Shown here: piece after piece, positions 10,014 through 12,243 of the stretch
Position numbering within the stretch: the stretch's first letter is position 1
How the letters are laid out: the number at the start of each line of letters is the position of its first letter
Source: Tausonia pullulans
Taxonomy: Eukaryota > Basidiomycota > Tremellomycetes > Cystofilobasidiales > Mrakiaceae
Length of the DNA: 64,000 nt
Reading direction: 5' to 3'
Assembly (NCBI GenBank): GCA_951802195.1
Contig: OX637636.1
Span: 570,501 to 634,500, forward strand
Translations under genes and position numbers: made by a program
The notes under the pieces: generated by a model
Database searches by the model: none
The model's input: only the letters and a program-made list of their open reading frames with translations
Told to the model about the DNA's origin: nothing

Positions 10014-10138
10014 ATTGTCACATCAAGACTCATTTTCCGAGCAACCTCGGTTCGAGTCCGGGCACTGCCTGTCAGCCTGTACGTACTAGGTACGGCGGTG
10101 TAGTATAGATGGTTAGTACACTCGGTTCTGAAGACAAT
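10014..10138 (+). other. Processing stem flanking the permuted tRNA
   Basis: ATTGTC at 10014-10019, upstream of the 3' half, is perfectly complementary to GACAAT at 10133-10138, just after the 5' half. TCA at 10030-10032 can pair with TGA at 10129-10131 (anticodon positions 35-37), leaving a TTTT bulge at 10033-10036 beside the anticodon stem. Such a helix-with-bulges arrangement is what tRNA splicing endonuclease recognises at intron borders. Here it would hold the two transcript ends together. The pairing is seen in the sequence; its role is inferred. Confidence 0.6.
10036..10131 (+). tRNA. Permuted tRNA-Gln(CTG): 3' half upstream of 5' half
   Basis: The 3' half is 10036-10070: nucleotide 38 T, anticodon-stem strand CCGAG (10037-10041), variable CAAC, T-arm CTCGG-TTCGAGT-CCGGG (10046-10062), acceptor strand CACTGCC (10063-10069), discriminator T. 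After a 23-bp spacer (10071-10093) comes the 5' half, 10094-10131: acceptor GGCGGTG, TA, D-arm GTAT-loop-GTAC (10103-10119), A, anticodon-stem strand CTCGG (10121-10125), loop TTCTGA. Swapping the halves gives a 73-nt cloverleaf with all stems paired (G-U pairs included), anticodon CTG, and a join between positions 37 and 38, the standard eukaryotic tRNA intron site. The joined loop TTCTGAT and the T discriminator match yeast tRNA-Gln(CUG) as I recall it. B box GGTTCGAGTCC (10049-10059) precedes A box TAGTATAGATGG (10101-10112), the reverse of normal order; both are good matches. A T5 run follows. Confidence 0.85.
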
Positions 10139-10140
10139 AC

Positions 10141-10145
10141 TTTTT
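10141..10145 (+). terminator. Pol III terminator after the permuted tRNA-Gln
   Basis: Five T residues directly after the 5' half and the complementary GACAAT. A T run here, after the 5' rather than the 3' half, is what a single Pol III transcript of a permuted gene would need. Confidence 0.65.
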
Positions 10146-12170: not shown

Positions 12171-12243
12171 GGTCCATTGGCCCAGTTGGTAAGGCGTGCC
12201 CTTCCTAAGGGTAAGATCGGCGGTTCGAACCCGTCATGGATCT
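12171..12243 (+). tRNA. tRNA-Arg(CCT), intronless
   Basis: An ordinary collinear tRNA. The acceptor GGTCCAT pairs with ATGGATC (one G-U), the D-stem GCC pairs with GGC, and the anticodon arm is TGCCC-TTCCTAA-GGGTA with anticodon CCT. The variable loop is AGATC and the T-arm is GGCGG-TTCGAAC-CCGTC. The anticodon arm resembles that of yeast tRNA-Arg(CCU). The base at the discriminator position is T, which is unusual for an arginine tRNA. A T5 terminator follows at 12262-12266. Confidence 0.85.

Follow-up and report, generated by a model that had tools for sequence, protein, structure and literature searches.

A circularly permuted tRNA-Gln(CTG) gene, recognized by direct reading of the sequence, occupies positions 10036-10131 on the forward strand of the window, the whole stretch of 64,000 nucleotides analysed here (C17:570501-634500). 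It is one of 21 loci of the same kind in its own assembly, and we hold with high confidence that these are functional type II (37/38) permuted genes for cytosolic tRNA-Gln(CUG), which would mature by circular processing. A Golgi apyrase-like protein encoded in the window has its best named match in Mrakia frigida, and the other named matches listed are from basidiomycetes. By its protein matches the host belongs to Basidiomycota, perhaps to Tremellomycetes.

The permuted gene in the window

Within the window the 3' half of the tRNA comes first and the 5' half follows it on the same strand. The features of the locus, read from the sequence unless another basis is given, are as follows.

10014..10035, + strand: leader, in which ATTGTC (10014-10019) is able to pair with GACAAT of the trailer (10134-10139) in the predicted fold
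10036..10070, + strand: 3' half of tRNA-Gln(CTG), from position 38 to the discriminator T73 (sequence, match to covariance model R1, 21-copy alignment)
10037-10041, + strand: 3' strand of the anticodon stem, within the 3' half
10046-10062, + strand: T arm, within the 3' half
10049..10059, + strand: GGTTCGAGTCC, which we take to be the B box, upstream of the A box here
10063-10069, + strand: 3' strand of the acceptor stem, followed by the discriminator T73 at 10070
10071..10093, + strand: intervening spacer of 23 nt
10094..10131, + strand: 5' half of tRNA-Gln(CTG), positions 1-37 (sequence, match to R1, 21-copy alignment)
10094-10100, + strand: 5' strand of the acceptor stem
10101..10112, + strand: TAGTATAGATGG, presumably the A box
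10103-10119, + strand: D arm
10121-10125, + strand: 5' strand of the anticodon stem, with the anticodon CTG at 10128-10130 and A37 at 10131
10132..10140, + strand: trailer, from the 5' half to the terminator
10141..10145, + strand: run of five T, a likely Pol III terminator (T-run count over the 21 copies)

The 3' half reads T38-CCGAG-CAAC-CTCGG-TTCGAGT-CCGGG-CACTGCC-T73 (10036-10070) and the 5' half reads GGCGGTG-TA-D arm-A-CTCGG-TTCTGA (10094-10131). When the halves are swapped, the acceptor stem (GGCGGTG/CACTGCC), the anticodon stem (CTCGG/CCGAG) and the D and T stems all form, the anticodon loop becomes TTCTGAT and the discriminator is T. The result is a complete tRNA in which the conserved U8, A14, G15:C48, GG18-19, U33, TTC54-56 and A58 are present, according to position rules taken in part from PMC3978253. 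An earlier note on this DNA gave the same coordinates and stems, the same loop and discriminator and the same T run, and its interpretation of the locus as a circularly permuted tRNA-Gln(CTG) gene in a fungus is supported.

Searches of the whole window with ARAGORN, also with introns allowed, and with Rfam at the gathering threshold each reported a single gene, the ordinary tRNA-Arg(CCT) at 12171-12243. Since neither program reported the permuted gene, such genes are easily missed. A covariance model of permuted class-I tRNAs (R1) matched 10036-10131 at 63.9 bits, with the next window match at 19.4, although the match is partly by construction given that the 12 rows of the model include the window gene minus one D-loop base. 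Scanning of 249,368 unique bases of the 23.86 Mb genome (approximately 1%) with R1, the kind of permuted-tRNA-aware search that the earlier note had called for, picked out 21 Gln genes at 61.8-74.3 bits with all remaining matches at or below 33.5 bits. Within this 1%, and for class-I tRNAs with a 37/38 junction, no other permuted isotype was present. The permuted order was likewise absent from viral_contigs and genome_contigs, collections of viruses, bacteria and archaea that have no bearing on other fungi.

Two other gene classes were tried for this locus and rejected. In the ordinary intron-containing class the 5' half lies upstream of the 3' half, an order that is reversed in the window, and a re-joined query was never matched contiguously. 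In the split, trans-spliced class the halves lie at separate loci, whereas here they are only 4-46 nt apart in all 21 cases.

Twenty-one copies and the conservation of the folded tRNA

The assembly (G000) comprises 23,855,473 bases in 21 contigs, and a search with the window copy returned 21 matches on seven of these (nine on C18, three each on C11 and C12, two each on C16 and C17, and one each on C1 and C14). The order of 3' half, spacer and 5' half on one strand is kept at 21/21 loci. Spacer lengths of 4, 5, 7, 8 (four copies), 11, 23, 24, 29 (nine copies) and 46 nt (two copies) fall within the 1-74 nt range of type II permuted genes (PMC3978253). A run of at least four T starts 8-18 nt past the 5' half in every copy, and a four-T run is found in none of the 21 spacers. 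In the 21-copy alignment, one column of which was shifted by the aligner in one row, 64 of the 73 tRNA positions are identical throughout, and eight of the nine that vary belong to four compensated pairs. A37 and T38 at the junction are invariant. The earlier note had judged the match too complete for chance and had raised an assembly artefact as an alternative; with 20 further copies, 21 on seven contigs in all, neither chance nor one error of assembly can account for the locus.

The placement of the copies also bears on how the halves could be brought together. Two C18 copies that share a strand and lie less than 1 kb apart (208368 and 209233) would suit an ordinary order restored through a long intron, running from the 5' half of one copy to the 3' half of the next. 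This is contradicted for copies that have no partner, C1 and C14 holding one copy each and the two C17 copies lying on opposite strands, and each 5' half is followed within 18 nt by the start of a T run, leaving a long intron with practically no chance. Separate transcripts, or halves of different loci, could instead be joined in trans as a split tRNA, which would often give a correct product given that the halves are near-identical between loci. However, the acceptor strands match each other in type at 21/21 loci, the shortest spacers, at 4-5 nt, could not accommodate separate promoters, the spacers contain no four-T run, and the search described below yielded no orphan halves among 42 matches. 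Joining in trans is very improbable, and a single permuted transcript per locus is the preferred reading.

Selection on the folded tRNA is visible in full pairing, in three versions of the acceptor stem linked by double changes, and in the varying spacers around which the tRNA is kept. In the permuted cloverleaf of 21 pairs, the 14 distinct rows among the 21 copies are paired in 294/294 cells. The acceptor stem is GGCGGTG/CACTGCC at 15 loci, GGTTGCA/TGCGACC at five and GGTGGCA/TGCTACC at one. Both sides of a pair are changed in 15 cells, at four acceptor pairs, which because the copies are related represent few events (at least two stem changes). The paired percentage, the number of double-change cells and the covariation score were reached in 0/500 shuffles, while the number of double-change pairs was reached in 132/500 and that of further pair types in 499/500. 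Structures slid by 1-3 columns were at most 43.2% paired. Among 12 hand-chosen representatives (66 pairs, a few of them still related, such as the window copy and L002), mean ungapped identity was 94.3% for the tRNA parts, 26.6% for approximately 60 nt upstream and 24.7% for 20-70 nt downstream, the flanking values being near chance.

Flanks are shared within the C18 group, within the C11 copies and within the C16 copies as longer blocks, some near-identical, and part of the copy number is therefore due to recent duplication. Several comparisons between C18 copies show a shared block that starts only approximately 0-12 nt before the gene and ends 16 nt after it, which is about the expected transcription unit. 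The nine C18 copies, of which many share flanks and near-identical blocks, and the longer blocks of C11 and C16 would also fit a set of non-functional repeats of tRNA origin, either SINE-like or debris of recombination, dispersed in permuted order. Against such repeats stand the contrast between tRNA parts and flanks among the 12 representatives, the three acceptor stems that keep full pairing through double changes, the retention of T runs in all copies and the failure to find an ordinary Gln(CTG) gene that could take over, and together these make non-functional repeats quite improbable. The box motifs might alternatively be kept for TFIIIC binding or a boundary function and not for a tRNA. 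Both the B box and the A box are intact, and a TFIIIC B-block domain is encoded as a weak partial match (28.7 bits) to a family that also matches 4 of 14 prokaryote controls. However, conservation extends beyond the boxes to the anticodon arm and its loop, to the discriminator T and to the acceptor stem with its compensated changes, and conservation for the boxes alone is extremely improbable. Functional permuted tRNA genes remain the preferred reading.

Several features of the surrounding DNA were observed in passing. The nine permuted genes of C18 lie at C18:73-220 kb (L002, L009, L010, L011 and L012) in repeated blocks in both orientations, some of them 100% identical, accompanied by intron-bearing Tyr and Ala genes called by ARAGORN. 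Beside permuted Gln genes in the same region, ARAGORN called a tRNA-SeC(TCA) with an intron at L009:1627-1713 and L011:2576-2662, each more likely a miscalled intron-bearing Ser-type tRNA. A 274-nt segment, 79.6% alike, lies downstream of two otherwise unrelated copies, L022 and L064, at approximately 370-640 nt past the permuted gene on the L022 side. Other tRNA genes occur in repeated cassettes, for example Leu-Lys-Asn-Glu-Ala, on C6:685-1021 kb (L044-L051, L084) and C2 (L038/L039), in both orientations and a few hundred bases apart.

The search for glutamine genes in ordinary order

When the re-joined 73-nt tRNA was used as a DNA query against its own assembly, 42 matches were obtained, consisting of 21 5' halves and 21 3' halves, with 0/42 contiguous and no orphan halves. 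The 5' half-matches end at query base 38 in 20 of 21 cases and at base 40 in one (two chance bases), and the 3' half-matches begin at base 39 in 21/21, so that the break is 37/38 in tRNA numbering. Together with the invariant A37 and T38, this bears out the join proposed in the earlier note. That note had set against its own reading the possible presence of several ordinary tRNA-Gln(CTG) genes elsewhere; none appeared in this search, which scores the best candidates only and skips very common words, and which a clearly different Gln(CTG) gene could escape.

Pattern searches gave a similar picture. With three mismatches allowed, the D-arm pattern returned 21 exact matches and two at three mismatches, against one in the reversed control, and a yeast-like Gln D arm returned three against 18 in the control. 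Allowing either C or T at position 34, the contiguous anticodon arm CTCGGTTYTGATCCGAG was absent at zero or one mismatch and gave nine matches at two mismatches against six in the control. The pattern GTACACTCGGTTTTGA with three mismatches gave at least 62+56 matches against at least 49+51 in the control, and 21 of those listed are the permuted Gln genes. Four GTACACTCGGTTTTGA sites were inspected by eye and rejected as tRNA, since they look like coding or retroelement sequence. Two of the four come from one repeat found at least nine times among the matches listed (at L101, L102 and seven or more other places), which by eye encodes a zinc-knuckle-like stretch and is probably a retroelement.

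ARAGORN found many tRNAs but no nuclear Gln gene in the fetched loci, a small and biased sample, and an RF00005 search of the assembly scored the best 63 of 897 candidates. A guessed Gln(TTG) query gave zero first-look candidates, a weak result as the tool seems to need long exact words. A nuclear Gln(TTG) gene is expected and was not located with these queries, and the search for ordinary Gln genes is for that reason not exhaustive. One Gln(TTG) was seen on C21 (18,821 bases), a very compact contig, at 5625-5698 of L100 (C21:1-8000 of 18821); it is among 14 tRNA genes called in these first 8 kb. C21 carries cob and other mitochondrial-type genes, by eye, and is probably mitochondrial; its cytochrome b is 52-67% identical to 120 listed matches, of which the named ones are from Basidiomycota except for one Penicillium entry.

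An ordinary-order Gln(CTG) gene is thus apparently absent, and most or all of the nuclear-encoded tRNA-Gln(CUG) probably comes from the permuted family. It is also likely, though well short of certain, that no ordinary gene is left beside the permuted form, in which case all cytosolic tRNA-Gln(CUG) would come from the 21 genes by way of an RNA circle, with Pol III acting on boxes in B-before-A order. Much of CAG decoding would then depend on 21 dispersed permuted genes.

Proposed expression and processing, and relation to known permuted systems

Expression would begin with a linear Pol III precursor of leader, 3' half, spacer, 5' half and trailer, ending at the T run. This precursor is predicted to fold as a cloverleaf with its ends in the anticodon loop and its acceptor stem closed by the spacer. 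The tRNA splicing endonuclease would cut after position 37 and before position 38, and tRNA ligase would join A37 to U38 to give a circle that retains the spacer until end-processing. RNase P and tRNase Z would remove the spacer and CCA would then be added. A precedent for such a pathway in permuted tRNAs is given by Soma 2014 (PMC3978253). The splicing endonuclease domain PF01974 is encoded as two partial matches and the tRNA ligase CPD domain PF08302 as one match; transcription, the action of the enzymes, the circle and the decoding of CAG are inferred.

Upstream promoter motifs show nothing consistent over the 21 copies, with a TATA within 80 nt upstream in 1/21, an A-box-like site within 120 nt upstream in 2/21, and, over the same 80 nt, no instance of any of five AT motifs in 13/21. 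Leaders paired with their own trailers no better than with those of other copies (p 0.106, 13 representatives). A bulge-helix-bulge at the junction would call for a short helix at the 3' cut, which has at least four pairs in 5/13 leaders and a single pair in another 5/13, the window copy included. Its total exceeded that of shuffled leaders (p 0.0032) in a post hoc test on leaders that are not all independent, and it is no proof of processing because five typed-in ordinary introns (three of them Lys) score only 1-2 on the same measure. Of 19 distinct precursors, 18 fold more stably without constraint than when the cloverleaf is enforced, and in the remaining one the two folds are equally stable.

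Among the papers listed in literature searches, none by its title and abstract opening reports a fungal permuted tRNA, most subscription papers and bioRxiv preprints being outside the scope of that search, and no paper on a missing Gln gene in basidiomycetes was found. We know of no earlier permuted tRNA outside photosynthetic eukaryotes and archaea, and the present family, if true, would be the first. According to PMC3978253, permuted genes are tied to algal or archaeal traits, among them tRNA transcription driven by TATA elements and splicing endonucleases of the broad kind. Such a family in a fungus, placed at the canonical intron site, would mean that fungal splicing machinery is able to take an essential tRNA through a circle, and would offer a setting near laboratory yeasts for the origin of permuted genes, transcription from inverted boxes and the role of circular tRNA.

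The permuted genes set out by Soma (PMC3978253) number 34, in six algae and one archaeon, with most eukaryotes described as without them. The closest is the Gln(CTG) gene of Cyanidioschyzon merolae, a type II gene with a 37/38 junction and a 31-bp spacer (Soma 2014, PMC3978253, Table 1), which shares with the present genes the isoacceptor, junction, spacer range, downstream T run and absence of an intron in the halves. In contrast, the host here is a basidiomycete with 21 genes and an acceptor stem in three versions. Most copies here lack an upstream TATA-like element, a feature described for the majority of C. merolae genes although not defining, and where this genome has the weak B-block match, C. 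merolae is said to be without identified TFC1 and TFC3 homologues (PMC3978253). Type II genes of prasinophytes and the Bigelowiella nucleomorph also place the 3' half first with a short spacer, and the 37/38 junction recurs in nearly all green-lineage entries of the same paper, but the green-lineage and nucleomorph entries given there are Ser, Leu, Cys, Arg, Asn and initiator Met genes, not Gln, and belong to photosynthetic lineages. The permuted genes of Auxenochlorella, described in 2025 (PMC12636532), have the same half order and a short spacer, again in a photosynthetic host. Those of Thermofilum pendens share the half order but are type IV genes of an archaeon with a 59/60 T-loop junction and an encoded CCA (PMC3978253), and permuted tRNAs also come up, for archaea, in the paper on tRNAscan-SE 2.0 (PMC8450103).

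Nearer at hand, ordinary intron-containing tRNA genes of the same genome (Lys, Asp, Leu, Ser, Met and Tyr) share the interruption in the anticodon loop beside the anticodon but differ in half order; they are a plausible source of the permuted form through tandem duplication and loss of the outer halves, following the model in PMC3978253. The 21 copies show the testable defining features of type II permuted tRNA genes. On the sequence evidence the family is real and very probably functional, a known kind of gene in an unexpected lineage. To our knowledge the occurrence in the fungal kingdom, the number of genes, the three acceptor stems with compensating changes and the apparent lack of an ordinary gene beside them are new.
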